Below, one piece after another: positions 4,637-29,669 of a DNA stretch of 64,000 nucleotides. Origin of the DNA: Lewinellaceae bacterium (GTDB lineage Bacteria; Bacteroidota; Bacteroidia; Chitinophagales; Saprospiraceae); NCBI GenBank assembly GCA_024644235.1, contig JAHELJ010000020.1, forward strand, positions 1 to 64,000, given 5' to 3'. The notes under the pieces are model-generated. The model was given only the letters and a program-made list of their open reading frames with translations. It ran no database searches and had not been told where the DNA came from. A program made the translations under genes and the position numbers. Positions within the stretch are counted from its first letter, which is position 1, and every line of letters starts with the position of its first letter.

Positions 4637-6562
4637 TTACTGGTCTACACGTGGTCCGTAAACTGGGTGGTCGCGTCCATATTCGAAAGCACCAAGGTCA
4701 GGGGCAGAGCCCTCGAAGCCTTCATTGATATTAGGGAGAATAACACCGGCATCAATGGCATCACAACCTGCTACCAGGTTGAAATCGAGGCCTTCGGGGA
4801 AGTAAACTTTGTGGGGAAACCCGGCATCAGGTTGTTTGATATTGCGAAATATTTCGGTCGTCACAGTTCTACTGTTCTTTTCGAGCCCAGACGATCCCCT
4901 TAGGTCATCCAGGTTGTCAAACAGCAAGGGTTCTGGTCGTGCTGAATAGTCATTGGGGCCATTTTTCGGGACAGCGATGCTGAATGGGGGCACCATAGCA
5001 GATTGATTATAGGCGAATCCGTTATAATCGGAGGTACTGTAGCGTGTATAGGTGATCAGACGGAATAAATGCTTGGTGGGATGATTGGTTCCGAAAAATA
5101 AATTATTGCGAAAATGGACGTTGGAGATCCCCACCACATTTGAATTTTCGGCGATAAAGGTATTATGGTAGATAAGCACCCCGGCTGGATTGGCTCCCCC
5201 GGTTTTGATGGCGCCACCAAAAGGCACGTTGTAAATGAGATTACCGATGAAGTAGACCGGACCACCAAACATCGGCTGAACACTCAATCCCTGATGAGCA
5301 GCGTTGAATCCGCGATTATTAAATACTCTGATATTGTGGACGCCTCCATCTGATTCGATAAAATCGTCTACCATCAGGAAGATGTCATTATTATAAATGT
5401 CGATCGAAACACATTTCAGATCCTGTTCTTCTTCCGGAATACCATAAGTGCTGATACAAATACCATCGTGGAAGAAGGAGATCTTGTTGTGGCAGATCAC
5501 ATGTCCCTGACCATACACTTTCACACCGTAATATGAATTGACTGGACTGGGGCCATAAGTCTTCATATTGGCCCAGCCATTCAACCTATGATGATCATCT
5601 CTCCCGATCATCGTATTGTCGGCTATATAGAAATTTTTTGCTCCCGCCCAATCGGTATGCACACCGATGCCGACATCTTCCAACCGGCAATTCCTGACAG
5701 ATAGATTGGAGCAGCCCATAACATCCTTCGCTCCGCCGTAAAAAGCGACCTCCGCGTTCCGTATGGTGATCCCCTCAAAAATATGATGATCCGCTGCCAT
5801 CACATCAAACAGCCTGAAGGCGTTGTCCCCATCGAAGATGACTTCGCCATCTCCCGCGGCTTTGATCGTAATCGGCTTTTCTTCCGTCCCATCGAGTGTC
5901 AATACGTAGGAACCAAAAAAAGGAATTTGATGAGGATTAATGTAATCCCTCCGGTCGGCCTTATATAGTCCGGCATGAATGAGAATGGTGGTACCTGGCT
6001 CCACCGGCCGGCAGCGCACTACATCCCAATCTCCCAATCCCGGTCCGTAGTAGGCCTCCAACAAACCCGTAAAGTAAGGCTCCTCACGATTGCCCTCGTG
6101 ATTTGGCGGGTATACATGCAGCACCGGTCCCTGCGGATAGGATTGGGGTACCTGCCGAGTCTCAACATTGACTTGTTGTACAGCTATACCATTCACCCCA
6201 TCCGGATCCGACATTTCAAAGCGACACTCGTACCTTTCAGCCGGATCGAGACCAAAGATGCTACCAGCAAACATGTGTGGAGTCCAGTACTCCAGGAATT
6301 CCCTGACCCGCCACACCTTCTCCCCTCCAATACGCAACATGGGCTGAGCGGTCCTCCAGATGTTTTCTCCCACTTTGCGGAAGCTAACCTCAACGACTGC
6401 ATTTCGATTTTCATCACCCTCGATCTTCCATTCAAAGCCGAGGCTGTGCAATGTAGATGGTTCTACAGTAAACTCCCCGGCAGTCACGCTATCCTGCTCA
6501 AGGTGGATGATCATTAAAATTAAAAAGGGTGTAAGACCGAGGGCAAGGAGATAAGATTTCAT
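4637..6562 (-). CDS. Secreted right-handed beta-helix protein, possible polysaccharide lyase
   Basis: 641 residues. An N-terminal hydrophobic segment (MKSYLLALGLTPFLILMII) looks like a signal peptide or anchor. It is followed by a fibronectin-III-like domain (about 30-140; WKIEGDENRNAVVEVSFR) and a long parallel beta-helix region (about 170-620) with repeating hydrophobic/Asn turns such as NLSVRNCRLEDV, NFYIADNTMIG and NIRVFNNRGF. The end carries the APDLGAFEYG motif common in secreted beta-helix proteins. Such proteins are often polyuronate lyases or epimerases, which would supply uronic or aldaric acids to the neighbouring genes. No lyase active site can be assigned with certainty. It is the last gene of the minus-strand run, 75 bases after the glucarate dehydratase. 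Confidence 0.8.
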   Translation of the reverse strand: MKSYLLALGLTPFLILMIIHLEQDSVTAGEFTVEPSTLHSLGFEWKIEGDENRNAVVEVSFRKVGENIWRTAQPMLRIGGEKVWRVREFLEYWTPHMFAGSIFGLDPAERYECRFEMSDPDGVNGIAVQQVNVETRQVPQSYPQGPVLHVYPPNHEGNREEPYFTGLLEAYYGPGLGDWDVVRCRPVEPGTTILIHAGLYKADRRDYINPHQIPFFGSYVLTLDGTEEKPITIKAAGDGEVIFDGDNAFRLFDVMAADHHIFEGITIRNAEVAFYGGAKDVMGCSNLSVRNCRLEDVGIGVHTDWAGAKNFYIADNTMIGRDDHHRLNGWANMKTYGPSPVNSYYGVKVYGQGHVICHNKISFFHDGICISTYGIPEEEQDLKCVSIDIYNNDIFLMVDDFIESDGGVHNIRVFNNRGFNAAHQGLSVQPMFGGPVYFIGNLIYNVPFGGAIKTGGANPAGVLIYHNTFIAENSNVVGISNVHFRNNLFFGTNHPTKHLFRLITYTRYSTSDYNGFAYNQSAMVPPFSIAVPKNGPNDYSARPEPLLFDNLDDLRGSSGLEKNSRTVTTEIFRNIKQPDAGFPHKVYFPEGLDFNLVAGCDAIDAGVILPNINEGFEGSAPDLGAFEYGRDHPVYGPRVDQ

Positions 6563-6637
6563 GAGGAAAAAATTTAGTGCTGATTTTCTTGTAGATGCTC
6601 TTACTACTGAGTTATATCTCCTTAGTCACGGGTCGGA

Positions 6638-7939
6638 TTACCATCTTGTCTTTTCAAATTTCCATTGCGGGTCTAGCTTTTGCATCTCGGCTTCGTCATC
6701 TCTTTCTTTAATCCCACATTGTAAATAATTCTGATTCAGTCTCTCCAGAGATGGGCGGTCGAGTTCAACTCCCAGTCCGGGACCGGAAGGTACGTTTAGG
6801 CTGCCTTCTTCAAATTGAAACCTGCCGCCTTCTATGATTTCCTCTGACTGCCAGGGATAATGAGTATCGAGAGCAAAAGGCACCTCGGGCAGAGCTGCCC
6901 CCAAATGCGTCATCGCTGCCAGCGAGATACCAAGGTGACTATTGGAATGCATGGACAGCTTTCTGCCGAAAACCTCACAGAATGCCGAAAGCTGCATCGA
7001 GGCTTGAAGTCCTCCCCAAAAATGATGATCACTCAGAATAATATCTTCTGATCCCAATGCGATACTCGATGGCAGGTCGGCAAAAGAGGTCGTGCACATA
7101 TTGGTAGCCAATGGCACATTCAGCCGCTTTCTCAACAGCGCCATGTTCTCCTGACCCCTCACTGGATCTTCCAAATACTCCAAGTACTTCTCCATCTCCT
7201 TGCCAATCTCTGTAGCAGTATCGAGAGACCAGGCTGCATTGGGATCAAAGCGGATGGGCATTTCTGTGAAATGGTCGAAGAGCGCTTTTACTGCTTCCAG
7301 TTCTTCCCAGGGTGGGAATGCTCCTCCCTTAAGTTTGATCGATTTGAACCCAAAAGATTCACACATTGATCCGGCTTGCTTGATAACTCCCGCCGGATCC
7401 AGTGCCCCTACTTGCCGGGCTTCTGCCCAGCCCCGTGCCGAGTCATCTTTTCCAAAACCATGCTCTCCTCCCGCTCCTTCTTGCTTGTAAAACAGGTATG
7501 CCGCATAGGGAACTTGGTCCCGGCGCTTGCCTCCCAGCAGATCACACACCGGTCGGTTCACTACCTTGCCAACGATGTCCAGGCAGGCTACTTCAATCGC
7601 GCTGAATACATGAACCAGCTTCCGCTGATCCCATGGTGCATCGCCACGACGCTGATCAGATCCAAAATGCTGCCTCAGTTCGTCCCTGATCAAATTCATC
7701 TGGAACGGGTCCTTGCCCAAGATCAAATCTCCCGCCATCTTGAGCGCTTGGTCAATCAAGGCGCTACCCGGAATTTCACTGATGCCGGAAATACCATCTT
7801 CAGTGACCAATTCAACAATAGTTCGAAGAGCAAATGGCGCGTGGATTCCCGCGGCGTTCAACAGAGGAGGATCAGTTACCGCAATAGGCGTAATGTGTAT
7901 TTGGGCAATTGACGGTCCCGGTCTTTGACTGGCGATCAT
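6638..7939 (-). CDS. gudD: Glucarate dehydratase, cytoplasmic copy
   Basis: Enolase-superfamily enzyme converting D-glucarate (and usually L-idarate) to 5-keto-4-deoxyglucarate with Mg2+. 433 residues, close to E. coli GudD. The N-terminal capping domain begins ITPIAVTDPPLLNAAGIHAP. Barrel motifs are the catalytic KLK in SIKLKGG, metal ligands in RFDPNAAW and LEDPVRG, the asparagine in ATNMCTTSF, SDHHFWGG and the catalytic histidine in SMHSNSHLG. All expected active-site residues are present. There is no signal peptide, in contrast to its paralogue at 9426-10847. It begins 14 bases after the GntP stop, so the two are probably co-transcribed. Confidence 0.92.
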   Translation of the reverse strand: MIASQRPGPSIAQIHITPIAVTDPPLLNAAGIHAPFALRTIVELVTEDGISGISEIPGSALIDQALKMAGDLILGKDPFQMNLIRDELRQHFGSDQRRGDAPWDQRKLVHVFSAIEVACLDIVGKVVNRPVCDLLGGKRRDQVPYAAYLFYKQEGAGGEHGFGKDDSARGWAEARQVGALDPAGVIKQAGSMCESFGFKSIKLKGGAFPPWEELEAVKALFDHFTEMPIRFDPNAAWSLDTATEIGKEMEKYLEYLEDPVRGQENMALLRKRLNVPLATNMCTTSFADLPSSIALGSEDIILSDHHFWGGLQASMQLSAFCEVFGRKLSMHSNSHLGISLAAMTHLGAALPEVPFALDTHYPWQSEEIIEGGRFQFEEGSLNVPSGPGLGVELDRPSLERLNQNYLQCGIKERDDEAEMQKLDPQWKFEKTRW

Positions 7940-7953
7940 GATTCGGCTGTTTT

Positions 7954-9400
7954 CTAAACCAAAGGAAACAATTTAGCTCCGATCAGGATCACGATCAAAC
8001 CTGTCAGACCCATGATGGTGAGAAGAGGTGAGAAGGTCTTGAGCGCCTCCTTTTCGGTGAGATTACTCATTTTACAGACTATCCAAAACCCGCTGTCGTT
8101 CATCCAGGGTATGAGTTTCGACCCGCAGGCGATGGCCAATCCGATGTAGACTACATGATAGGGAAGCTGGGCTTCGGTACTCATCCCAGATAGGATTCCA
8201 GCGGCAGTAATCATAGCCACAGTGGCAGAACCCTGTGCCGTGCGAACAATTGCTGTGATCAGAAATGCCAGTGGAATCAGAGCCATCTGATATCCCTGGG
8301 TCAAATCAGCGATGTGTGCACTGATATCTGTCTGTTGCAGCATAGCCCCGAATGCTCCCCCTGCCGATGTAATCAAAATGATCAACCCTCCACTAAGCAG
8401 GGCATCCTGAACTGACTTCTTGATCGATCCTTCTCGGTCGGGTCTCGATACGAGCAAAAGAATAGCGATCAACGCTCCCAGAATCAAAGCCAGGTTCTTT
8501 TCACCACCAAAATCAAGAAGCTGTACCAAAAGACGTAGCAACAGGGAAGGCGAATCAATTGCTCCAGGAGCAAACGTTTCCAGTGCAGCCTTTGCAGTAA
8601 TTAACCCTACTGGTAAGAGAATGGGTAACGTCGAAACCAACAAACCCGGAAGAGCACCAACTTCTCTTGCCGCCAATTTGCGAATTTCTTCCAAAGGAGC
8701 TTCCGGAGAGTCACGCAAGGGTATCTGCCACCTAGCATCTGCCCATTTAGCGAACCAAAAACCAGCAACGATGGTGAACAAACCGACAATCAAACCACTT
8801 ACGATCATCATCCCCATTGGGATATCCAATTCTACCACGAGGAAGAGCGGACCGGGAGTGGGAGGTACCAGAGAGTGGGCCATCACTCCTCCCGCTGCTA
8901 TACAAAGTACCAGCAGAAGGTAGTTCCTGCCAATTTTCGCAGCCATGGCTTTTGCTAATGGTATCATGAGATAGAAAACCGTATCAAAAAAAACCGGTAT
9001 GGCCAGAAAAAAGCTGCTGCCAAGAAACGAAACGGGAGCCCTCTCCTCCCCGGTGATCTTTAGCAAAGAGCGAACTATCTTTTCTGCAGCTCCGCTTTCC
9101 AACAAGCATTTGCCAATGACCGCAGCCATGGCAATTAAGATACCGATCTTGCCACAGGTATCACCAAAGGCAAGGGCAACGCGAGCTCCAATGGCTCGAC
9201 CAGCTAATTGGCTGGGATCGATTCCGTGGCTTAGCGCATATGATTGCAAGGCCTGGTCAGGAGTGAGAATAGCCACGATGAGAGCACCTAAGATGAGTGC
9301 CAGAAATGCGTGTAAGCGTAGCGCGATGATACCGCCTACTACTACAATTAAACCAACCAGCAGAATGAGTAGAGGACTAATTTTCTATTTGCTTTTGCAT
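7954..9400 (-). CDS. GntP-family permease for gluconate/aldarates, apparent 5' frameshift
   Basis: Inner-membrane secondary transporter of the Ion-Transporter/GntP family, here likely importing aldaric or aldonic acids. The body has about 12 hydrophobic segments with GntP blocks such as FGDTCGKIGILIAMAAVIG, PVFFDTVFYLMIPLAKA, VPPTPGPL, AQGSATVAMITAAG and MNDSGFW. The only ordinary start in the main frame is a GTG at 9274-9276, which would drop the first membrane helix. That helix (PLLILLVGLIVVVGGIIALR) is encoded in frame just upstream, between 9277 and 9384, without a start codon. An ATG at 9398-9400 lies one frame off. Removing one A from the AAAA tract at 9381-9384 gives MQKQIEISPLLILL and restores a full-length permease. 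Confidence 0.87.
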
Positions 9401-9425
9401 TATGAAATGGACTTCTGCGCCACCA

Positions 9426-10847
9426 TTACCATCGCTCCGGTATTCGTTGCCAGCCGGGCTTTACTTTCTGCATTTCTATTTGATCATTTCGCTCGGTCAA
9501 TCCGCAGTCCAGATAATTTTGATGTAGCCGCGCCAGTTGTTTGCGATCGAGTTCAACACCTAATCCGGGCCCACTTGGCAGCTGTACTGCTCCCTCCTCA
9601 AAGTGATATCTTCCCTGGGTGATGACCTCATCGGTCTGCCAGGGATAGTGCGTATCCAGATCAGCAGTGAGGAAAGGATAAGCTGCTCCCAGATGGACCA
9701 TCGCGGCCAGAGAAATGCCCAGGTGACTATTGGAGTGCATGGAAACACCTCTTCCAAATATGTCGCAAATCCGGGCGAGCTCCATGCAGGCTCTAAGCCC
9801 ACCCCAATAATGGTGATCGGTGAGGATAATGTCTTCCGAGCCTAGTTCAATGCTGCCAGGAAGATGTTCGAAAGCAGTGGTGCACATATTTGTTGCCATC
9901 GGGATCTTGAGCGATCTCCTTACAGTCGCCATGTTTTCCTGCCCTCGCACCGGATCCTCAAAATATTCAAGGTATCCTTCCAACTGCTTTCCGTATCTGA
10001 TGGCCGTATCAATTTTCCAGGCAGCATTGGGATCCAACCTGATCGGCACTTCCGGACCAAATTCATTCCTTAATGCCTTGACTGTGTCTACTTCCACCTG
10101 TGGCTCGAAAACTCCACCTTTCACCTTCAGTGACTTAAAACCAAATTGCCTGGTCATAGTGATCGCTTGTTCAACCAACCCCGCCGGATCCATAGCTTCT
10201 TCTTGTCTGCCCTTCAACCAACCTTCAGCCAGTGGATCCGTTTCAAATCCTAACGGTCCTCCGGCACCTTTGTGCTTATAAAATAAATAGGCTGCAAAGG
10301 GCACCCGCTCTCTCATCTTACCGCCCAATAGATCCACCAATGGACGGTTAATAATCTTACCGATGATGTCAAGGCAAGCGACTTCGATGGCTCCGTATAC
10401 CCTCCTGAGCATCCTCAGATCCCATTTGTTTTTACCGGATTCGTCTTGTGCAGTCGCAAACATCTCGTCCGAGAGATGTTGAAGTATTTCGTGCAACTGA
10501 AAGGGATCCATACCAATCACAGAGGCAGCAGCGAAATCCATAGCTTCTCGAATCCTTTCTCCACCGTGCAATTCACTTATTCCACTGATTCCATCATCAG
10601 TGACTAGCTCGATCACCAGACGAAGAGCATACGGTGCATGCAGCCCCGCAGCATTTAGCAAGGGTGGGTCTTCGATTGCTATGGGAGTGACTATGGCTTC
10701 CTTGATTAATGGACCACTTTGCGGCAGTTTCACTCTCAATTTACTTCCAGCGGTCAGAGAGGGTAGAAAGGAAAACCCGCCGGTCATCATTGCAGCCCTG
10801 ATTACCGTCCTTCTTTTTGGATCCAGCTTATCGGCTTTGCTATTCAT
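9426..10847 (-). CDS. Glucarate dehydratase paralogue with Tat-like leader
   Basis: Second enolase-superfamily glucarate dehydratase. It is clearly homologous along its length to the copy at 6638-7939 and 40 residues longer. The extra length is an N-terminal leader with a twin-arginine pattern (DPKRRTVIRAAMMTGGFSFL), suggesting export of the folded Mg2+ enzyme to the periplasm. Active-site motifs are intact: SLKVKGG, RLDPNAAW, FEDPVRG, ATNMCTTAF, TDHHYWGG and SMHSNSHLG. It lies directly upstream of the permease, 25 bases from that gene's probable ATG. If exported, aldarate could be dehydrated before uptake, and the permease might carry the keto product. Export is inferred from the leader only. 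Confidence 0.88.
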   Translation of the reverse strand: MNSKADKLDPKRRTVIRAAMMTGGFSFLPSLTAGSKLRVKLPQSGPLIKEAIVTPIAIEDPPLLNAAGLHAPYALRLVIELVTDDGISGISELHGGERIREAMDFAAASVIGMDPFQLHEILQHLSDEMFATAQDESGKNKWDLRMLRRVYGAIEVACLDIIGKIINRPLVDLLGGKMRERVPFAAYLFYKHKGAGGPLGFETDPLAEGWLKGRQEEAMDPAGLVEQAITMTRQFGFKSLKVKGGVFEPQVEVDTVKALRNEFGPEVPIRLDPNAAWKIDTAIRYGKQLEGYLEYFEDPVRGQENMATVRRSLKIPMATNMCTTAFEHLPGSIELGSEDIILTDHHYWGGLRACMELARICDIFGRGVSMHSNSHLGISLAAMVHLGAAYPFLTADLDTHYPWQTDEVITQGRYHFEEGAVQLPSGPGLGVELDRKQLARLHQNYLDCGLTERNDQIEMQKVKPGWQRIPERW

Positions 10848-10885
10848 TTATTGATTTGAACTAGCCAGATTCTACCTAATCGTTC

Positions 10886-12016
10886 TCAGCCAATTGCAAT
10901 TCTCTTTCCACCTTTCTTGGCCGATTTATACAAGGCATCAATGACGATCATATCCTTCAGCCCATCTTCTCCCGAAGCGATGACGGGTGTACCATCCAGA
11001 ATATTCCGGGCGAATGCATCCATCTGTGCCGCCTGTTGATTGTGAATCGGGAGATCAATTTTGTCTTCACCTTTATAACCTGTTGCACCGGAGTAACCAA
11101 AGCATGGTTCCAGACCATAATTACCTTTCTCTGCCGAGATGTGGAGAAAGTTTGCCCGGGCCGCATAGCTTGAGCTGCAGTTCGCCAGAGTGCCATCTGG
11201 AAACTCAAGGGTAAAAACAATGGTTTCTTCCATCCCATCCATCCGATTTGGATAGGTGTTATAAGTCTTTGCCCACACAGCAACCGGTTCGAGGCCTGTG
11301 CTGTATCGTGCCGCATTGATGGAATAAACACCTACATCCATCAGCGGTCCGCCACCAGCGAGGCTTCGGTCGGTATACCTCCAATTATCCCCATGTACTC
11401 CAAAGAAAGAGTGCGAGCTTCTGATTTCCTTCAATGCTCCCAGCTCCTTTTCACGACCGATGCGCATGATTTCCTGGTGATTGGGATCATATTGACAGCG
11501 GTATCCGATCTGGAGGAGTTTGCCTGCTTTTGCGCATGCTTCCACCGCCTCAGCCGATCGCTTCGCGTTGATGTCAAAAGGCTTCTCGCAGATTACATGT
11601 TTGCCCGCCTGAGCGGCTCTGATTACAAAATCAGCGTGCATGGAGTTGGGCAATACCACATAGACTATGTCGATATCCGGATTGTCTGCGATGGAATCAA
11701 AATTTTGATAGTTGTATATGTTTTTATCCTCAAGGTTGTATTTGGACTTCCAATCGGGAATCTTGGAGGGCGTACCGGTCACGATCCCTTTTAGCTGGCA
11801 GAATTCAGTTACTTCCAACCCCACGGCAAGTTTATGCTTGGCATAATATCCAAGGCCAACCAAGGCGACTCCAAGCTTGCTCTCGTCAAAAGATCTAGCT
11901 GAAAGCTTTGTATAGGGAAACGATAGAACTCCCAGCGAGCCAAGTGCAACCGAGGCACCTGCTTTTCTTAGGAATGATCGTCGATCTTGTTTTTGATGAG
12001 ATAAATTGTTATTCAT
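10886..12016 (-). CDS. Gfo/Idh/MocA-family oxidoreductase with Tat leader
   Basis: NAD(P)-dependent sugar or sugar-acid oxidoreductase of the glucose-fructose oxidoreductase type. The Tat leader (QDRRSFLRKAGASVALGSL) is followed by a Rossmann domain (LGVALVGLGYYAKHKL), the conserved ICEKPFDIN lysine block near the middle and the C-terminal GFO_IDH_MocA_C domain (ELGALKEIRSSHSFFG, GGGPLMDVGVYSINAARY). 376 residues is normal. It sits between the PLP enzyme and the exported glucarate dehydratase, 38 bases from the latter, and all three have Tat-like leaders. The substrate is not evident; oxidation or reduction of an aldonic/uronic acid derivative fits the context. Confidence 0.88.
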   Translation of the reverse strand: MNNNLSHQKQDRRSFLRKAGASVALGSLGVLSFPYTKLSARSFDESKLGVALVGLGYYAKHKLAVGLEVTEFCQLKGIVTGTPSKIPDWKSKYNLEDKNIYNYQNFDSIADNPDIDIVYVVLPNSMHADFVIRAAQAGKHVICEKPFDINAKRSAEAVEACAKAGKLLQIGYRCQYDPNHQEIMRIGREKELGALKEIRSSHSFFGVHGDNWRYTDRSLAGGGPLMDVGVYSINAARYSTGLEPVAVWAKTYNTYPNRMDGMEETIVFTLEFPDGTLANCSSSYAARANFLHISAEKGNYGLEPCFGYSGATGYKGEDKIDLPIHNQQAAQMDAFARNILDGTPVIASGEDGLKDMIVIDALYKSAKKGGKRIAIG

Positions 12017-12103
12017 AAAACAAGTTTTTTTCAGGACTTATTCAACATAAAATATAGTTTTCTCAGGATATGTCACCACATAGATTACGCTCTTGGACTT
12101 TTA

Positions 12104-13396
12104 TTATGCCAGAGACTCTATGACTTTAAGTGCTTTTAACACCTCATCCTCGGTGTTGATGATACAAGGAGTGAGACGAGGATAACTTACACGATAAGGG
12201 GAGGTACTGGCAATGATTTTTCGTTCGTGTAATTTGTCAACAACATCCTGAGGCTTCATGCCACTTACCTCAAAGCAATTGATGCCGCTAGAAATCTCCA
12301 TTGATCGGGGGGTATGCAGGTTCACATGCTTCATATCGGATAAGCCATCTTTCATCATTTGATTTAACTGATGGGTCCTGCTTTCGATTTTGTCCTTACC
12401 AATCTTCATATGAAAATCGAATGCTTCATTCAAGGCCCACCGGTGTTCATACGCGTGAAATCCTCCCGGCGAATGTAAATCACTGAAACTCACTTCACCT
12501 TCCGGCTCCAATCCCATCCACATGCCATAAGGAGCTTCTCGGAAGGCAGGGATGGTAGGTGTCATCATATGCCAGGCATCTCTCTTGCCCCAAAGAATGC
12601 CAGTACCTCTAGGTCCGAATAACCACTTGTGTGTACCCGCGGCAAAAAAGTCGCAGCCCAAGGACTCCATCGAAATATTCTCTACACCAAAGCCATGTAC
12701 TCCATCTACACAAAAGTAGATCCGATCTGAGAAGTCACGATCTGCATTTCTTGACTTGATTACATCCGCCATTGCCCGAATGGGCAATTTGACTCCTGTA
12801 CAAGAATGCACCCAGGTGACTGCCACGATTCTTGTGCGTTGGCCAATGGCTTGGCCCAATCTTTCGACAATTTCATCAACCGATGCCTTTGCTGGATCAT
12901 CATAGAGCGAAATGCGTTTTATAGATGCTCCGTTCTTTTGGGCAGCGAATTCCAAAGCCTTTTCCGAGGAATAATGGTCATGTGTGGTAGTTAGAATTTC
13001 ATCTTCGCTGTTCAGCTTCAGACCCGAATAAAGAATTCCCAAGCCCATGGTGGTGCTGTCTGTCAAAGCAATTTCTTCCGGATCTGCCTGCAGATAACCA
13101 GCTGCGGAAACTTTCACTTTCTCAATTGCCGGGATCCAATTGTCCTCCCAAAAAAGCACAGGATGCTGATCAAATTCCCGGTGATACATTTCAATGGCAT
13201 CTCGCACCGGTTTTGGATGCGCGGCGAAAAGCATCTGAGCCATGTGAATGTAATCAGCATGAAGGGGAAATTGTGCTCTTACACCAAGCCAACCATCATC
13301 AGGTACCGGATCAGTACTGGCATAGCTTGGCAACGGCAAGACACTGGAGGCACCCAATGCCAAACCGGAGTTTAGTAAGAATTTACGTCGATTCAT
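12104..13396 (-). CDS. Class V aminotransferase-fold PLP enzyme with Tat leader
   Basis: 430 residues. The leader is short and twin-arginine (MNRRKFLLNSGLALGASS). The body is a fold-type I, class V PLP enzyme related to cysteine desulfurase and isopenicillin N epimerase. Visible are ALTDSTTMGLGILYSGL (cofactor phosphate region), VTWVHSCTG, FCVDGVHGFG (PLP-ring aspartate) and FAAGTHKWLFGPRGTGILW (Schiff-base lysine). The exact reaction is unknown. It heads the minus-strand run and faces the phoX-like gene across a 140-base divergent spacer. Export of a PLP enzyme requires a folded-protein route, which agrees with the leader. Confidence 0.82.
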   Translation of the reverse strand: MNRRKFLLNSGLALGASSVLPLPSYASTDPVPDDGWLGVRAQFPLHADYIHMAQMLFAAHPKPVRDAIEMYHREFDQHPVLFWEDNWIPAIEKVKVSAAGYLQADPEEIALTDSTTMGLGILYSGLKLNSEDEILTTTHDHYSSEKALEFAAQKNGASIKRISLYDDPAKASVDEIVERLGQAIGQRTRIVAVTWVHSCTGVKLPIRAMADVIKSRNADRDFSDRIYFCVDGVHGFGVENISMESLGCDFFAAGTHKWLFGPRGTGILWGKRDAWHMMTPTIPAFREAPYGMWMGLEPEGEVSFSDLHSPGGFHAYEHRWALNEAFDFHMKIGKDKIESRTHQLNQMMKDGLSDMKHVNLHTPRSMEISSGINCFEVSGMKPQDVVDKLHERKIIASTSPYRVSYPRLTPCIINTEDEVLKALKVIESLA

Positions 13397-22388: not shown

Positions 22389-23612
22389 ATGGCAAGATTA
22401 ACCAAGGCATTCAACCAATTCGGACCCGCTATCATTACGGCTGCGCTGGTCTTTGGTCCGGGAAGCATTACGATTACCACGAAATTAGGAGCCACCTTTG
22501 GTGACAGCATTTTGTGGGTGGTTGTGATGTCGGTGATCTTCATGTTGATCTACACCCGGATGTCCACCCGGATTGGCCTGTCGACGGATCAAACCCTGAT
22601 GACGGTGGTGAGAGAATCGTGGGGTACACCGTTGGTGATCATTCTCGGTTTGGGCATCTTTCTCATTACGTGCTCTTTTCAGGCAGGAAATTCGATCGGG
22701 GCCGGAGTCGCCTTTGCAGAATTGACCGGTAGCAAGACGGTGCCCTGGGTGATATTTTTTGCCCTCGCCTCCATCGCTCTATTGTTCTTTAAGTCGTTTT
22801 ATCTGATCCTGGAAAAAGTCATGACCGGACTGGTCTTGGTCATGCTGATCTCTTTCCTGATCACACTGATACTAAGTCAGCCGGATTTGATTTCCATAAC
22901 CAAAGGATTGATCCCCACGATCCCAAAGGGTTCGGTTTTCCTTTCCAGTGCCCTCATTGCCTCGAGCTTTTCGGTGGTGGGCGCTTTCTATCAGTCCTAC
23001 CTGGTGCAGGAGAAAGGCTGGCGAATCGATCAGTTGGCCACCGCCAGCAAAGAAAGCAGAAACGGGATCATCGTACTGGGTATCCTATCCACCATGGTAT
23101 TGCTTTGTGCCAGTTCCGTACTACATGAAAAACAAATTGAGGTGAACACCGCCTCGGATCTGGGTATGGCCCTCGAACCACTGTTTGGTCGTTTTGCCAC
23201 AGTAGCATTCATGATTGGCTTTTTCGCAGCCTCATTTTCTTCACTGATTGGCAATGCTACCATCGGAGGGGCCCTGCTGTCCGATGCCCTGGGTGCCGGA
23301 AAACAATTGAGCAGTGTCAAGGTGCGAATAGGCATCGCCCTTATCATGATCACCGGTGCAGGGATTGCGATCGCTTTTGGCGGCCTGCCAATCCAGTTGA
23401 TCATCTTCGCGCAGGCCATCACCATCGTCATCGCTCCACTGGCAGCGCTGGTGATCTTAGGGGTAGCCAATCGCAAGGATATTATGGGTCTGCGAAGCAA
23501 TACACCATTTCAAAACATCCTCGCCTGGATCGGATTACTTATCTTGATCCTATTGGCCATATACAACATATTCAGAATCTTTTTTCCTCATCTCCTATTC
23601 ATAGATGCGTAG
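22389..23612 (+). CDS. Nramp-related transporter lacking the canonical metal-site residues
   Basis: 407 residues with 11 predicted membrane helices and clear Nramp framework (FGPAIITAALVFGPGSITITT; LVQEKGW after helix 6; NATIGGALLSDAL). The two signature motifs are altered. The helix-1 DPGN motif reads GPGS (residues 23-26), losing the metal-binding aspartate and asparagine. The helix-6 MPHN region reads SVVG, losing the methionine and histidine. Manganese or iron transport is therefore doubtful. It overlaps the downstream epimerase gene by 8 bases in a four-gene operon with sugar-type enzymes, so an organic substrate or a non-canonical ion is more likely. Confidence 0.85.
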   Translation: MARLTKAFNQFGPAIITAALVFGPGSITITTKLGATFGDSILWVVVMSVIFMLIYTRMSTRIGLSTDQTLMTVVRESWGTPLVIILGLGIFLITCSFQAGNSIGAGVAFAELTGSKTVPWVIFFALASIALLFFKSFYLILEKVMTGLVLVMLISFLITLILSQPDLISITKGLIPTIPKGSVFLSSALIASSFSVVGAFYQSYLVQEKGWRIDQLATASKESRNGIIVLGILSTMVLLCASSVLHEKQIEVNTASDLGMALEPLFGRFATVAFMIGFFAASFSSLIGNATIGGALLSDALGAGKQLSSVKVRIGIALIMITGAGIAIAFGGLPIQLIIFAQAITIVIAPLAALVILGVANRKDIMGLRSNTPFQNILAWIGLLILILLAIYNIFRIFFPHLLFIDA

Positions 23613-24621
23613 TCTCCAAGAGCTCGAAAACAAATTGACAAGTCCGAACCGGGCGTTGATTGAAGATCTCCGTCATCTCAATGGCGATATCATCATTCTT
23701 GGTGCCGGAGGCAAGATGGGTCCTAGTCTTTCGATACTGGCAAAGCGGGCAGTACTTGAGGCTGGCATAAATGTTCGCATTATTGCCGTATCAAGGTTTT
23801 CAGATGAAAGAGTCCGGGAGAAAATGGAGGACGCGGGAGTGGAAACCATCAGTGGTGACCTGCTGGATGAAAGCTTCCTTCAATCCCTTCCTACAGTGGA
23901 AAATGTCATCTTCATGGCCGGTCAAAAATTTGGAACCTCTGGGAACGAAGGATCTACCTGGGCTATGAACACCTACCTACCTGGCAGGGTGGGCCATTAT
24001 TTTTATCAATCACGAATAGTTGTTTTTTCCACCGGAAATGTATATCCGCTTGTACCGGTAGATAGTGGTGGTGCCACTGAACAAACGCCTCCCGGTCCAG
24101 TCGGCGAATATGCGCAGTCGTGCCTGGGTAGAGAAAGAATATTTCAGTATTTCTCCTCGGTCAATCATACTCCCACGGTCATCTTCCGGCTTAACTATGC
24201 GCTCGACCTCCGGTACGGTGTGCTTAACGATATTGCGAGGATGGTATGGAATAATCAATCAATTGATCTCAGCATGGGCTACGTGAATGTCATCTGGCAG
24301 GGAGATGCGAATTCGTTTGCCTTGCGATCACTGCTGCACTGCAGTTCACTCCCAACCATCCTAAATGTAACCGGACCGGAAGTGATCTCCGTCGAGTGGT
24401 TGGCAAAAGAGTTTGGTCGCATGATGGATCGCACTCCCAGGTTCACGGGCACGCCGGCTCCGACTGCCCTTCTAAGCAATGCTGGGGAAGCTCTCCGGCG
24501 CTTTGGCCAGCCAGTCGTCAGCCTGCAATATATGATGACCTGGACTGTGCAATGGATAGAGTCGGGAGGGGCGGATCTGCAAAAGCCCACCCACTTCTCA
24601 GAAAGAAAAGGTCAATTCTAA
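23605..24621 (+). CDS. NAD-dependent epimerase/dehydratase family protein with altered YxxxK motif
   Basis: 338 residues, extended short-chain dehydrogenase fold. The nucleotide site is IIILGAGGKMGPSLS (residues about 29-43), and the TGNVYP strand follows in order. The usual catalytic YxxxK appears as YAQSC, so the lysine is replaced by cysteine. GRERIF and FRLNYALDLRYGVL occupy the positions of the following helix and substrate loop. Classical sugar epimerase chemistry may be changed or lost. It overlaps the transporter gene by 8 bases and precedes the DapA-family gene by 6. Confidence 0.83.
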   Translation: MRSLQELENKLTSPNRALIEDLRHLNGDIIILGAGGKMGPSLSILAKRAVLEAGINVRIIAVSRFSDERVREKMEDAGVETISGDLLDESFLQSLPTVENVIFMAGQKFGTSGNEGSTWAMNTYLPGRVGHYFYQSRIVVFSTGNVYPLVPVDSGGATEQTPPGPVGEYAQSCLGRERIFQYFSSVNHTPTVIFRLNYALDLRYGVLNDIARMVWNNQSIDLSMGYVNVIWQGDANSFALRSLLHCSSLPTILNVTGPEVISVEWLAKEFGRMMDRTPRFTGTPAPTALLSNAGEALRRFGQPVVSLQYMMTWTVQWIESGGADLQKPTHFSERKGQF

Positions 24622-24627
24622 TTTCTG

Positions 24628-25710
24628 ATGAAGGGCATTCTGACAATTGAAAAAAAGAAAAAGCTGCATCAGGGATTGGTGATCCCGGCTCACCCGCTGG
24701 CATTGACAGCTGACCGGAAAATCAATGTGCAAAGTCAACGGAGGTTGACGCGGTACTACCTGGAGGCGGGGGCCGGAGGCATTGCCGTGGGGGTGCATAC
24801 CACGCAGTTTGCGATTAGAGATGCAGCACACAATCTCCTTGAAGAGGTGCTTACTCTGGCCAGTGAAGAGGTGGCTAAGCACCCACGGGGTTCTGAAGTG
24901 ATCCGGTTGGCCGGAGTGAGTGGTCCCACTAGTCAGGCCGTCGCGGAGGCCGACCTGGCAAGAGCATTAGGATACGACCTGGCCCTGATTAGTCCCAACG
25001 GTCTGCAAGAGTGGACCGAAGCACAATTGCTTGAACGCGCTCAGAAGGTCTCCGCCGTATTGCCGCTATTTGGATTTTATCTGCAACCAGCCGTGGGTGG
25101 AAAAGTCCTTGGTCCGAAGTTTTGGAAGGCATTTGCCGAAATCCCCAATGTATGCGCCATCAAGATCGCACCCTTCAACCGCTATCAAACTCTTGATGTG
25201 GTCAGAGCGGTTGCCGCCTCTTCACGTAATGAAGAAATTTCCCTTTATACGGGCAATGATGACAACATTGTTAACGATCTGCTCACCACCTATGAAATCA
25301 TGACCCCTAATGGCATGATCAGAAAAAATATCGTCGGTGGTCTACTCGGACAATGGGCCTGCTGGACAAGCAAAGCAGTAGAATTACTTGAGGAAATCCA
25401 TGCAGTCAAAGAAAATGCTTCAGGTCATGGATCCATTCCTCAATTGTTGAGTCTGGGCCAGAAGATCACGGATGCCAACGCAGCGATCTTTGATGCCGCC
25501 AATCAATTCCACGGCTGCATCCCAGGTATTCACTATGTACTCCAAAGACAAGGTCTGCTCGATGGAATATGGTGTCTCGATCCTGGCGAGACACTCTCGG
25601 CTGGACAAGCCGATGAGATTGAACGGGTATATGACGATTACCCTGAATTGAGTGATGATCAATTTGTTTCTCATTTCCTGCAGAAGGACCTCCAGGCACA
25701 TGGCCACTGA
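24628..25710 (+). CDS. DapA/dihydrodipicolinate synthase-family lyase
   Basis: 360 residues, longer than DapA (about 290). Schiff-base class I aldolase fold with GAGGIAVGVHTTQF in place of the DapA GTTGE loop, the tyrosine in FGFYLQPAVGG and the lysine in VCAIKIAPFNRY. It is only distantly related to the DapA-family protein at 3660-4598. Encoded in one tight operon with the Nramp-like transporter and atypical epimerase, it probably cleaves or dehydrates a keto acid derived from the transported compound. The GNAT gene overlaps its 3' end by 11 bases. Confidence 0.85.
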   Translation: MKGILTIEKKKKLHQGLVIPAHPLALTADRKINVQSQRRLTRYYLEAGAGGIAVGVHTTQFAIRDAAHNLLEEVLTLASEEVAKHPRGSEVIRLAGVSGPTSQAVAEADLARALGYDLALISPNGLQEWTEAQLLERAQKVSAVLPLFGFYLQPAVGGKVLGPKFWKAFAEIPNVCAIKIAPFNRYQTLDVVRAVAASSRNEEISLYTGNDDNIVNDLLTTYEIMTPNGMIRKNIVGGLLGQWACWTSKAVELLEEIHAVKENASGHGSIPQLLSLGQKITDANAAIFDAANQFHGCIPGIHYVLQRQGLLDGIWCLDPGETLSAGQADEIERVYDDYPELSDDQFVSHFLQKDLQAHGH

Positions 25711-26560
25711 CTCCTTTCAGATCCGATCGATGACAGAAGCCGATCTGCCGCATTGCGTGCGACTGAGCGAGGAAGCCGGATGGAATCAACTGCATACTGA
25801 TTGGGGGTTCCTGGCGAAAGCCGGGTCGGAATACAATCTGGTAGCCACTCTTGATGATCAAATCCTGGGCACTGTGACCGCGCTTCCCTACTCAAACCGT
25901 TTTCTCTGGATCGGTATGATGCTCGTTGATGTGAGCTACCGCCGCCGGGGAATTGGAAAGCACCTGCTCAGCAAGCTGATGGAAAATGCTGATCCATCCT
26001 GCTGCTTCGGATTGGATGCCACTCCCCTGGGTGAAAAATTATATGACGTACTCGGCTATAAAAAGATGGCAAACTTACACCGCTATGGGCGGCCGGCCAA
26101 CGGAAAGAAGGATAGTACATCAACGTCTTCGAATTGCCGGAAAATCACGCCGCTGGACCTTGATCGAATCATCTCTCATGATCAGGATATCTGCGGAGTA
26201 GATCGTTCTTCCGTACTCCGTTATCTGTATCGAGCAGCGCCTGACTATGCCTGGTTGCTGGAGTTCGATGGGCAGTTAGCCGGATATATGATGGGCCGTC
26301 CCGGAAGACTTGCCGATCACCTGGGGCCATTTGTTGCAGTTTCAGCAGATGTGGCTCTGACTCTCCTGGAAGCTGCGCTCTTTTCGTCCCCCAAGACTTT
26401 TGTCATCGATGTTTTTGATCATCAAAAAGAATGGATCGACACGCTGAAGGATTTGGGTTTTGAGGCGCAAAGACCACTCTACCGGATGTTTCGGGCAGAT
26501 CCTATCACGACACTGAGCGGCCCGAAAATCTTTGCAGTTGCCGGTCCGGAACTAGGATAA
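25700..26560 (+). CDS. GNAT-family N-acetyltransferase, two-domain
   Basis: 286 residues from the ATG at 25700, which overlaps the lyase stop and places the GNAT fold at the N-terminus; an upstream in-frame ATG at 25652 would add 16 unlikely residues. The first GNAT domain (about 5-140) has the acetyl-CoA motif VDVSYRRRGIGKHLLSKLM. A second, degenerate GNAT-like domain covers about 150-280 (YLYRAAPDYAWLLEFDGQLAGYMMGRPG). Two-domain proteins of this type acetylate amines or are uncharacterised. It is the last gene of the plus-strand operon, converging on the esterase gene. Confidence 0.83.
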   Translation: MATDSFQIRSMTEADLPHCVRLSEEAGWNQLHTDWGFLAKAGSEYNLVATLDDQILGTVTALPYSNRFLWIGMMLVDVSYRRRGIGKHLLSKLMENADPSCCFGLDATPLGEKLYDVLGYKKMANLHRYGRPANGKKDSTSTSSNCRKITPLDLDRIISHDQDICGVDRSSVLRYLYRAAPDYAWLLEFDGQLAGYMMGRPGRLADHLGPFVAVSADVALTLLEAALFSSPKTFVIDVFDHQKEWIDTLKDLGFEAQRPLYRMFRADPITTLSGPKIFAVAGPELG

Positions 26561-26590: not shown

Positions 26591-28645
26591 CTAGTTATCT
26601 GCCACATTCAGCGAAAGATCTGGATACCGGCCAGCGACAGTCTGCAGCATCTGCCAAGGTTCAGAGTCGGGAGTTGAAGACCTCGTGATGCTGACATCAT
26701 GCTTGCCAGCAGCCATTAGCACCGATGCTGGCATATCTATATGCCTCATAATTCCCAGATAATAAGGTCCTTGGTCATGACTGGGAGGAAGGTCACTAAG
26801 GAACAGTTGTAAACGATCAGTTGTAAATAAAGAAGCATACAATAACTTGCCCGCCTCGACTCCATGGGCAGATACTATAAATGTTTGGCCATCCCTTCTT
26901 TTAGTAATCGCCCGGAGGGCTTGTTTCAGATCCCAGGTCTGCATCGCATCTAAAGATTGACCCAGTAGATAAAACCTCCGCTTGATATGGACCTGCTTAC
27001 TGTCACTCCCATGGAATTGAGCCGGCCCTATTCCCCGGGCACTAATTAAATAAATGCTGCCGCCGACATCTATGAGTTCCTGCACTTCATCCTGTTGAGA
27101 CTGGTCGAGACCCAAATCCTTCCATAGTGAGTGCTCAGGGAAAAAGGCATCCAAATATTCAGCCCATGCTGACCAGTTGGTATCATCAAGAACGATGACT
27201 TGACTTTCTTGATCGGCACTTTGCCCGCTGTTCTCAATGTGGAAAATTGGCAACTTGGTGTGCTCATCTGTTTTCAGTTGATAGAGCGTTACCTCAGTAT
27301 TGTCTCGTTCGCTGGATTCCACCTCCTCCATCATTGGCTCCTCCTCCCAGGGCCAAAATTCGAATATCTGGGAACGTAAGATCTCCTGGTACCGGCCTTC
27401 TAAATCCGGAAGAGAGGCTGACTCCAGCTGCTCAAACACGGATGGAGCCAGAGGTACAAAACTTTCATCGATACGCGCATTGACGGCATCCGTCGGCAAC
27501 TGATCGAAGACCCGCAATGCTTCCGGATCAAAAAATTTCACGGCAGGTTTTTCGATTAGATCATCATGCCCCTGTAGGTGTTGATTAAACCAGCGGAAGG
27601 CATGGACCCGCAGCTCCTGTACATCCTGATGCGGGCCGGCGGTAGTATGTAATGCCAGGGCTTCCCGTGTATCCAGCTTTTGGTACACTTCCCGCACGGA
27701 CTGAAAGACATCAAACACTCCGTCGATGGGAAAGATGGGATCCCGGTCGGTATTGCTGATGAGCAAATGACGGGGAGCCACGAGCGCAGCCACCTTGGCA
27801 TAATCCCACTGATGATAGTTGAATATGTACATGCAATCACAATGACCCTCCACACAGCCTTCCACCACGTGGTCGTTCATATTGGTGATACCCGCTACCG
27901 GCACAGCTGCTTTTACCCTTTGATCCAAAGCGGCAATCCACCAAGTGGTAGCTCCCCCTCCACTCCTTCCTGTTACCCCAATACGGTCAACATCTACCTC
28001 TGGGCGCTCACTGAGGTAATCAATCGCTCTGATTCCATTCCAGGCCTCCACACCCGCCGGCGTATACCCTCTTGACATCCACCACCACCGGTCGTATCGA
28101 TAAAGGCCATGGTGAATTCCTTCGATTTCACCCAATTGTACCGTGTCAAGGATGAGACAGACATATCCGTGCCGAGCAAACCAGGCGGGATGATGTTGGT
28201 AGTGCACTTTCGCTCCGTAGTTGTAACCATCTTTCACCACGGTGGCATGACCGCAGACATAGAGGATGGCCGGCATCGGTCCTTCAACATTTTTGGGTAT
28301 ATACAAGTTGCCGGTGACATACAATCCGGGTACTGACTGAAAATGTACTTTCTCGACAGTAAACTCGTCATGTTCGACCACTCCCGTCACAGTAGCCCTT
28401 AGTGGACTCTTTGCTGGATAGGGCAGTAGTCCCAGCATTTCCTGCAGTTGCTCTCGGGCTACATCCGAATACGACTGCCAATCGGATATTTCTCTGAGTT
28501 CTTTCCTGGTGGTTTCCGCAAGGGCTTGGGTCTCTGAGCTAAAGTAGGCTTCCAGTTGTTTGTCGAAATCCCACGATGGTTCCAGTGGTGTTTGTTGAAA
28601 GCTGAAAACAAGCAGCAGGAAAATGGAAAGAAAAAGCTTCATCAT
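26591..28645 (-). CDS. Secreted alpha/beta-hydrolase, acetylxylan-esterase-like
   Basis: 684 residues with an N-terminal signal peptide (MKLFLSIFLLLVFSFQQTP). The hydrolase domain (about 60-380) has the oxyanion region LYVCGHATVVKDGYN, the nucleophile elbow GVTGRSGGGATTW, the acid in SNTDRDPIFP and the histidine in TAGPHQDVQ. A cysteine-rich block (EGCVEGHCDCMYIFNYHQWDY begins near residue 265) is typical of this uncharacterised subgroup. A C-terminal half of about 300 residues shows a second hydrolase-like region lacking a clear nucleophile. It is likely to deacylate oligosaccharides for the adjacent GH2 enzyme. It lies 25 bases after the Gfo/Idh gene. Confidence 0.82.
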   Translation of the reverse strand: MMKLFLSIFLLLVFSFQQTPLEPSWDFDKQLEAYFSSETQALAETTRKELREISDWQSYSDVAREQLQEMLGLLPYPAKSPLRATVTGVVEHDEFTVEKVHFQSVPGLYVTGNLYIPKNVEGPMPAILYVCGHATVVKDGYNYGAKVHYQHHPAWFARHGYVCLILDTVQLGEIEGIHHGLYRYDRWWWMSRGYTPAGVEAWNGIRAIDYLSERPEVDVDRIGVTGRSGGGATTWWIAALDQRVKAAVPVAGITNMNDHVVEGCVEGHCDCMYIFNYHQWDYAKVAALVAPRHLLISNTDRDPIFPIDGVFDVFQSVREVYQKLDTREALALHTTAGPHQDVQELRVHAFRWFNQHLQGHDDLIEKPAVKFFDPEALRVFDQLPTDAVNARIDESFVPLAPSVFEQLESASLPDLEGRYQEILRSQIFEFWPWEEEPMMEEVESSERDNTEVTLYQLKTDEHTKLPIFHIENSGQSADQESQVIVLDDTNWSAWAEYLDAFFPEHSLWKDLGLDQSQQDEVQELIDVGGSIYLISARGIGPAQFHGSDSKQVHIKRRFYLLGQSLDAMQTWDLKQALRAITKRRDGQTFIVSAHGVEAGKLLYASLFTTDRLQLFLSDLPPSHDQGPYYLGIMRHIDMPASVLMAAGKHDVSITRSSTPDSEPWQMLQTVAGRYPDLSLNVADN

Positions 28646-28670: not shown

Positions 28671-29669
28671 TTACTTGTCATGAAAGGCCATGACTTCTGA
28701 AAGGAGCACGGGATCCCCTCCTCGCCGCTTACTCTCGTGCGCCGCTTCCATAAACGCAAAAATCTCCACGGTTTCTTCCGGATCCACCGGTGATTCACCA
28801 TTCTCAAAAAACCGGGCAATTTCCCGCACGAGGTGCTCATATCCTTCGTATCTCCCGGCTGGAGCAATTCCATCTTCACCGAAGGCCACTCCTCCATAGT
28901 CTGTCTTCCCGGAACGGATACCCCGGAAGGTCCCAATGCGGCCATCGGCCCACTCTCCCACCACGATCTCCATACCGTCGTGATGGATTCTTCTCACCTG
29001 CCGGCATCCCCTCCCCATCACGGTAAAAAGGGATTCGACGCCATGAATGCCATACCAAAACAGATCGGGATGGGTCTTCTCCAAGGTGGCCGGAGAATAG
29101 ATATCCGCGGCAATCACTTTACCGATGCTGCCATTTGCAATAGCCTGGGTGCTTGGCGCAAAGCGTAGAGAGGAAGCTGAAAAAACCGGTACCTGGTGCT
29201 GGTCGGCCTCTCGTAGGATGGTCCTGACGTCTGAAAGCGATGCAGCAAGTGGTTTGTCAATAAACATGGTTTTACCAGCAGCAAATACTTGCCGGGCCTG
29301 CTCCAAATGGCGCCTGCCGTCGTTGGTCAACAACAACACCTTCTCCACTTGTCCTAATAACTCATCAATGGAATCGACGACTTCCACATTCATCTCCCGC
29401 ATTTCCTCGGTATAGCGAGGAATTCTGCTGGTACTCGATTCGATGTCCAGGCTACCGTGGGGATAAGCATGGGTGACCCGGAAATTTGCTTCAAACTCCG
29501 GATCATTAAAAATCCTGGTGAATGCGGGGGCATGAGAAGTGTCCAGACCGATGATCCCGACCGGGACTTCATCAGTCCTTTGCATTTGTTTCTTTCGTAA
29601 AAGCCGTTCGCTCAAAACCAGGCCAAGGCTACCATGTAAGACGGTATGAATTAGATCTCTACGTTGCAT
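28671..29669 (-). CDS. Gfo/Idh/MocA-family oxidoreductase
   Basis: 332 residues. A short leader (MQRRDLIHTVLHGSLGLVLSE) has a weak twin-arginine look. The Rossmann domain starts VGIIGLDTSHAPAF. The catalytic lysine block is MFIDKPLAASL, a variant of EKP. The C-terminal half is shorter than in the copy at 10886-12016 and only distantly similar. It lies between beta-galactosidase and esterase in a minus-strand run. The substrate is unknown; modification of a sugar released by those two enzymes is plausible. Confidence 0.82.
   Translation of the reverse strand: MQRRDLIHTVLHGSLGLVLSERLLRKKQMQRTDEVPVGIIGLDTSHAPAFTRIFNDPEFEANFRVTHAYPHGSLDIESSTSRIPRYTEEMREMNVEVVDSIDELLGQVEKVLLLTNDGRRHLEQARQVFAAGKTMFIDKPLAASLSDVRTILREADQHQVPVFSASSLRFAPSTQAIANGSIGKVIAADIYSPATLEKTHPDLFWYGIHGVESLFTVMGRGCRQVRRIHHDGMEIVVGEWADGRIGTFRGIRSGKTDYGGVAFGEDGIAPAGRYEGYEHLVREIARFFENGESPVDPEETVEIFAFMEAAHESKRRGGDPVLLSEVMAFHDK

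Follow-up and report, generated by a model that had tools for sequence, protein, structure and literature searches.

A widely conserved gene module, apparently undescribed and catabolic, that pairs a lysine-less SDR with a divergent DapA/NanA-fold lyase

Metal is bound in the Nramp transporter DraNramp by ligand residues of TM1 and TM6 (PMC6398981). Some Nramp-family transporters, such as PxpT and YcsG, are instead encoded inside organic-acid catabolic operons, and PxpT is required for growth of Corynebacterium glutamicum on 5-oxoproline (PMC13274462). The DapA/NanA superfamily of class I aldolases, whose members share a fold, a Schiff-base lysine and a catalytic tyrosine, includes DHDPS, N-acetylneuraminate lyase, KdgD and L-KDA dehydratase. 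In non-phosphorylative sugar-acid pathways (KdgD, KDG aldolase), a dehydrogenase, a hydrolase, a DapA-type lyase and importers for sugars or sugar acids are found in one cluster.

Here we describe a locus of a Lewinellaceae bacterium that has features of each of these systems. It lies within a 64,000-nucleotide stretch of contig JAHELJ010000020.1 (assembly GCA_024644235.1), which we refer to as the window. Like PxpT and YcsG, its Nramp-family transporter (A) is part of an apparent organic-acid operon, although the operon partners differ. The locus also resembles the non-phosphorylative sugar-acid clusters in its combination of activities, but the core of the module contains neither IlvD/EDD nor an enolase-type dehydratase, and the module adds a GNAT protein, M20 amidohydrolases and SdaAA/SdaAB.

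Layout and conservation of the locus

A preliminary description of this DNA proposed that four tightly linked plus-strand genes, A to D, form a complete small pathway of import, NAD-dependent modification, aldol-type cleavage and acyl transfer. The ORF coordinates confirm the arrangement (Table 1). A and B overlap by 8 bases, B and C are separated by 6 bases, and C and D overlap by 11 bases provided that D begins at the ATG at 25700. We used this start, as alignments of homologues begin at about 25700; the mechanical ORF start is a GTG at 25652.

Table 1. Genes of the module in the window
Gene	Product	Position	Strand	Details
A	Nramp-family transporter	22389..23612	+	407 aa; Pfam Nramp PF01566, E 2e-65
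B	Extended-SDR, epimerase/TerB-like oxidoreductase	23605..24621	+	338 aa; Epimerase PF01370, E 5e-06
C	Divergent DapA/NanA-fold class I lyase	24628..25710	+	360 aa; DHDPS PF00701, E 2e-06
D	Tandem two-domain GNAT acyltransferase	25700..26560	+	Acetyltransf_1 plus Acetyltransf_18 (Pfam)
E	Secreted-looking alpha/beta hydrolase, AXE1/glucuronoyl-esterase-like	26591..28645	-	Convergent; probable module member
F	Short Gfo/Idh-type oxidoreductase, possible Tat-like leader	28671..29669	-	Convergent; module member (cluster 6)

Four independent searches of 150 genomes of the same family, probably Saprospiraceae, detected B in 13, C in 12, A in 11 and a strong match to D in 12. A, C and D were present only in the 13 genomes that carry B (hypergeometric p 5e-15 to 8e-17, ignoring relatedness). 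In the single B-bearing genome without C (G045), B is cut at the end of a contig. A was absent from two genomes, G024 and G128, and the G024 operon has an MFS transporter in its place. As D is on a different contig from B-C or A-B in G086, G138 and G045, linkage alone does not explain its co-occurrence. Among 395 sampled genomes of the phylum, strong matches to B and strong matches to C were found in the same six genomes.

Scanning GTDB species genomes with an alignment of C yielded at least 592 confirmed loci, and we counted neighbourhoods in the best 80. Although these 80 were chosen by C alone, every one has B on the same strand as C and no more than 300 bases upstream of it. In four loci (L059, L084, L087 and L108), B was missed in the ORF clusters (antisense ORFs) and was recovered by tblastn. 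Carriers among these best 80 of at least 592 loci are Bacteroidota, Bacillota, Deinococcota (Trueperaceae) and Acidobacteriota, and plasmid records add Actinomycetota, Alphaproteobacteria and Planctomycetota, such that the pair spans at least seven phyla. On plasmids of Streptomyces, Rhodococcus, Prescottella, Nitratireductor, Tistrella, Sulfitobacter and Aquisphaera, B and C are adjacent or nearly so. A is directly upstream of B in 30 of the 80 loci, including three from Bacillota. The conserved core is B-C only; elsewhere, MFS or ABC transporters take the place of A, and D is frequently missing. Since the genes co-occur in the 150 genomes and B adjoins C in 80/80 loci, the four-gene array is not due to chance. 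Rare co-occurrence elsewhere had been named beforehand as the outcome that would count against the proposal, and the neighbourhood search gave the opposite result.

Contrary to what had been supposed, the unit is not limited to exactly four genes: F and probably E also belong to it, and other lineages add a GSDH, an M20 amidohydrolase or SdaAA/SdaAB. F has homologues (Gfo/Idh cluster 6) near C, at most 3.5 kb away, in 16 of the 80 loci, 15 of them on the same strand. On the Aquisphaera plasmid, where the order is GNAT-B-C-E, an E homologue with 31% identity directly follows C. Alpha/beta hydrolases recur near the B-C pair. As the 80 genome loci showed no E homologue up to 3.5 kb from C, support for membership of E is moderate. 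Because the F cluster recurs near C and an E homologue follows C in Aquisphaera, the module is best drawn here as A-B-C-D on the plus strand with E-F on the minus strand, E being the least certain.

The window contains a second sugar-acid-like cluster at 4637-13396 on the minus strand. It encodes a pair of mandelate-racemase/enolase-type proteins along with a GntP gluconate permease, a Gfo/Idh oxidoreductase and a class V aminotransferase; one further protein, of 641 aa, had no Pfam hit.

Features of the four core proteins

The preliminary description also held that none of the four proteins is a canonical member of its family. This is true of A, B and C, in which expected residues are missing or scores fall far short of the equivalog cut-offs, and fails for the architecture of D. 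None of B, C and D has an equivalog in NCBIfam.

A passes the broad NCBIfam Nramp_1 model (99 versus 50) and remains far below the cut-off for the MntH subfamily (PRK00701, 102 bits versus 430). In alignments, the canonical TM1 motif DPGN reads GPGS and the TM6 motif MPH is missing, and this loss of metal ligands is common to 20 aligned homologues from the module. The genome contains three other Nramp genes. The one closest to A, which is only 32% identical to it, adjoins a PxpA gene and also has glycine for the TM1 aspartate (L127, GPGT). It is part of an Nramp-PxpA-PxpB/C-like run, in which PxpB/C were assigned by eye from sequence and not with a model. Since its metal ligands are lost, its closest paralogue is beside PxpA and PxpT has the role described above, A is better read, by analogy, as an importer of an organic acid than as a metal transporter. 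An apparent pxpT-pxpA-pxpB-pxpC operon for 5-oxoproline lies in the same genome (L143, G000 C178 21501-25113), and its Nramp-family transporter, like A, has glycine in place of the TM1 aspartate.

B has the Rossmann fold of extended SDRs. Its predicted structure (pLDDT 94) matches TerB, GalE and RmlB with Z scores of 28-31, and the best match is TerB (6nd7; Z 31.3, rmsd 2.5 over 291 residues, TM 0.78). Like TerB and GalE-type enzymes, B retains GxxGxxG, as GAGGKMG, together with the Ser/Thr and Tyr residues. Unlike them, it lacks the lysine of YxxxK, shares only ~18% identity and is partnered with a DapA-like protein. The motif reads YAQSC in the window, with cysteine for lysine, and the position is not lysine in the aligned family either. 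With the catalytic lysine of standard epimerases and dehydrogenases absent, it is the fold that supports the proposal that B carries out an NAD-dependent modification. B could be catalytically altered or non-redox. As in NADP-dependent TerB, beta-2 is followed by an arginine (Arg64), which suggests that the cofactor is NADP.

C has the fold and the catalytic residues of the DapA/NanA superfamily. Its predicted structure (pLDDT 94) aligns with DHDPS (3pb2) with Z 34.0 and rmsd 2.2 over 295 residues, and NanA is the top Foldseek match among the matches listed. Lys179 and Tyr151, which align with the Schiff-base lysine and the tyrosine of YNVP, are invariant in 53 homologues. C differs from described members in its low identity to them (12-22%), ~60 extra residues and HT in place of the carboxylate-binding TT of GTTGE. 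No NCBIfam equivalog for DHDPS or NanA matched C, and its score against KdgD was 14.8 bits versus a cut-off of 373.95. Elsewhere (L042, 8665-10724), we observed a diverged B-C pair (~34-38% identity) whose C protein has Glu at the position of the catalytic tyrosine. The pair may belong to a related module that carries out different chemistry.

D contains Acetyltransf domains that score above the Pfam cut-off. It is an ordinary two-domain GNAT in architecture, yet it forms its own single cross-phylum family, with invariant WNQ and LDA motifs and a C-terminal GPxxG-like end. Homologues of D are encoded between B and C in Tistrella and Sulfitobacter, two Alphaproteobacteria, and before B in Aquisphaera.

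Neighbouring genes and a proposed pathway

In 11-12 Bacteroidota loci, a GSDH with a cytochrome c domain precedes A-B-C, in some cases together with SusC/D. M20 amidohydrolase genes lie within 3.5 kb of C in 18/80 loci, all on the same strand. SdaAA/SdaAB, which score above their equivalog cut-offs, are near C in 14-15/80 loci (SdaAA in 14/80 within 3.5 kb, all on the same strand). Tight B-C-SdaAB-SdaAA-M20 runs are often seen, and the order in Prescottella is SdaA-B-C-MFS-M20. In Paenibacillus, the pair is followed by sugar ABC importers with AraC regulators, and a solute-binding protein there is similar to the AlgQ-type proteins that bind acidic oligosaccharides. Two further partners were observed: a regulator-like protein with a GdpP-type GGDEF stretch and an HTH (cluster 3; L064, 12892-14250), within 3.5 kb of C in 31/80 loci, and a 650-aa beta-propeller-like protein (cluster 16; L054, 10071-12053), which recurs in Bacteroidota and Bacillota and had no match in the PDB.

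These neighbours agree in indicating that a polar small molecule, mostly one derived from sugar, is taken up and broken down; in some lineages it would contain nitrogen and give a serine-type product. There, the M20 amidases and the L-serine ammonia-lyase suggest chemistry that involves N-acyl groups and serine. As 21/80 loci have no tested partner other than B within 5 kb, the other steps may differ between lineages. We rejected a reading based on serine only as not general, given the number of loci with SdaAA/SdaAB. In the genome described here, the sole match to SDH_alpha is partial and at a contig end, so this step cannot be placed in this organism. The Sulfitobacter locus encodes an NMT1/ThiY-type binding protein and a RutR-like regulator, which hint at a pyrimidine substrate. 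Since other lineages use sugar importers, we keep this as a lead only.

On balance, we favour a conserved module that breaks down a small, polar, carbohydrate-derived organic acid, with a pathway that uses all six genes. The order of steps that we infer is as follows. F would oxidise the sugar, a role that a PQQ-type glucose/sorbosone dehydrogenase with cytochrome c may fill in other lineages, and E or another alpha/beta hydrolase would free or open it. A, as a non-metal member of the Nramp family, would move the resulting acid over the inner membrane, as MFS or ABC importers would elsewhere. B, an NADP-type SDR without the usual lysine, could then shift the redox state of one carbon, and C would form a Schiff base with the product of B through Lys179, leading to either retro-aldol cleavage or dehydration. 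D, or an M20 amidase elsewhere, may add or remove an acyl group on an amine, and any serine-type products would be deaminated by SdaAA/SdaAB.

There is moderate support for the general form of this proposal, in which an importer, an SDR and a Schiff-base lyase are combined with the handling of acyl groups. The idea of a complete small pathway survives in part: import, redox modification, lyase and acyl-transfer functions are conserved as a unit, but the four genes are not the whole of it. A linear order in which aldol cleavage precedes acyl transfer goes further than the evidence. Several points count against the favoured reading. In the window, E and F are encoded on the other strand from A-D. 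The transporters seen across loci (sugar ABC, NMT1/ThiY-type ABC, tripartite tricarboxylate, MFS and Nramp) fit no one substrate. The 21/80 loci with B as the sole tested partner, and the possibility that B is altered or non-redox, weigh in the same direction.

An oxidative amino-sugar route is one alternative, which we consider unlikely. A 2-amino-2-deoxy sugar would be converted to the acid with its N-acetyl group kept, or with D acting if the amine were free, after which B would add a keto group and C would split the chain into a three-carbon N-acyl amino acid and a triose-like unit; an M20 enzyme would free serine, which SdaAA/SdaAB would convert to pyruvate. The M20, SdaAA and GSDH counts and gene orders given above are consistent with this route, as is the presence of GNAT and M20 genes together in L115. 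However, most loci have no nearby M20 or SDH gene, the M20 matches are to broad aminoacylase/carboxypeptidase families, there is no clear link to GlcNAc genes, and the chemistry is our own construction. We think it quite improbable that the module is a widespread, undescribed route for N-acylated (amino) sugar acids, in which uptake by an organic-acid Nramp protein and the action of a lysine-less SDR would be followed by cleavage, an M20 enzyme and serine ammonia-lyase to give pyruvate. Cleavage would then fall to a new DapA subfamily, with a retro-aldol reaction yielding an N-acyl-serine-type unit.

It is distinctly doubtful that the genes form a small biosynthetic or metabolite-repair operon, with B as a TerB-like natural-product reductase and C condensing rather than cleaving. 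The structural match of B to TerB favours this idea, but TerB retains YxxxK, and the importers, SusC/D, GSDH, SDH and M20 genes point to uptake and breakdown. An analogy to TerB/TerC was also dropped, as the second enzyme in clusters of the close relatives of TerB is limonene-epoxide-hydrolase-like and not a DapA protein. We hold to the same degree of doubt the idea that this is a known pathway under generic annotation, such as a described sugar-acid route that uses these DapA and SDR families. These families are annotated generically and our literature coverage was open access; however, we found no paper on the B-C pair in the open-access literature, and NCBIfam offers no equivalog. Finally, a metal-linked system, with A importing a divalent metal and B-D modifying or salvaging a chelator, would fit the family-level Nramp_1 and strong Pfam scores of A, but is very improbable given the loss of the D, N and M ligands (roles in PMC6398981) from A and its module homologues, the replacement of A by MFS and sugar or organic-solute ABC importers, and the carbohydrate genes nearby.

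Every part of the locus belongs to a known superfamily, and the whole is a real, widely conserved module, probably catabolic. It also appears to be undescribed, as had been suggested, since searches of the open-access literature found no publication that describes the set. The B-C pair occurs in at least seven phyla and at least 592 loci, yet databases annotate it generically. Assigning a function to B-C would name a catabolic step that is common in soil and marine bacteria; the SDRs would gain a lysine-less member, and the DapA family a new specificity. It would likely also turn a clade of "Nramp metal transporters" into organic-acid importers.
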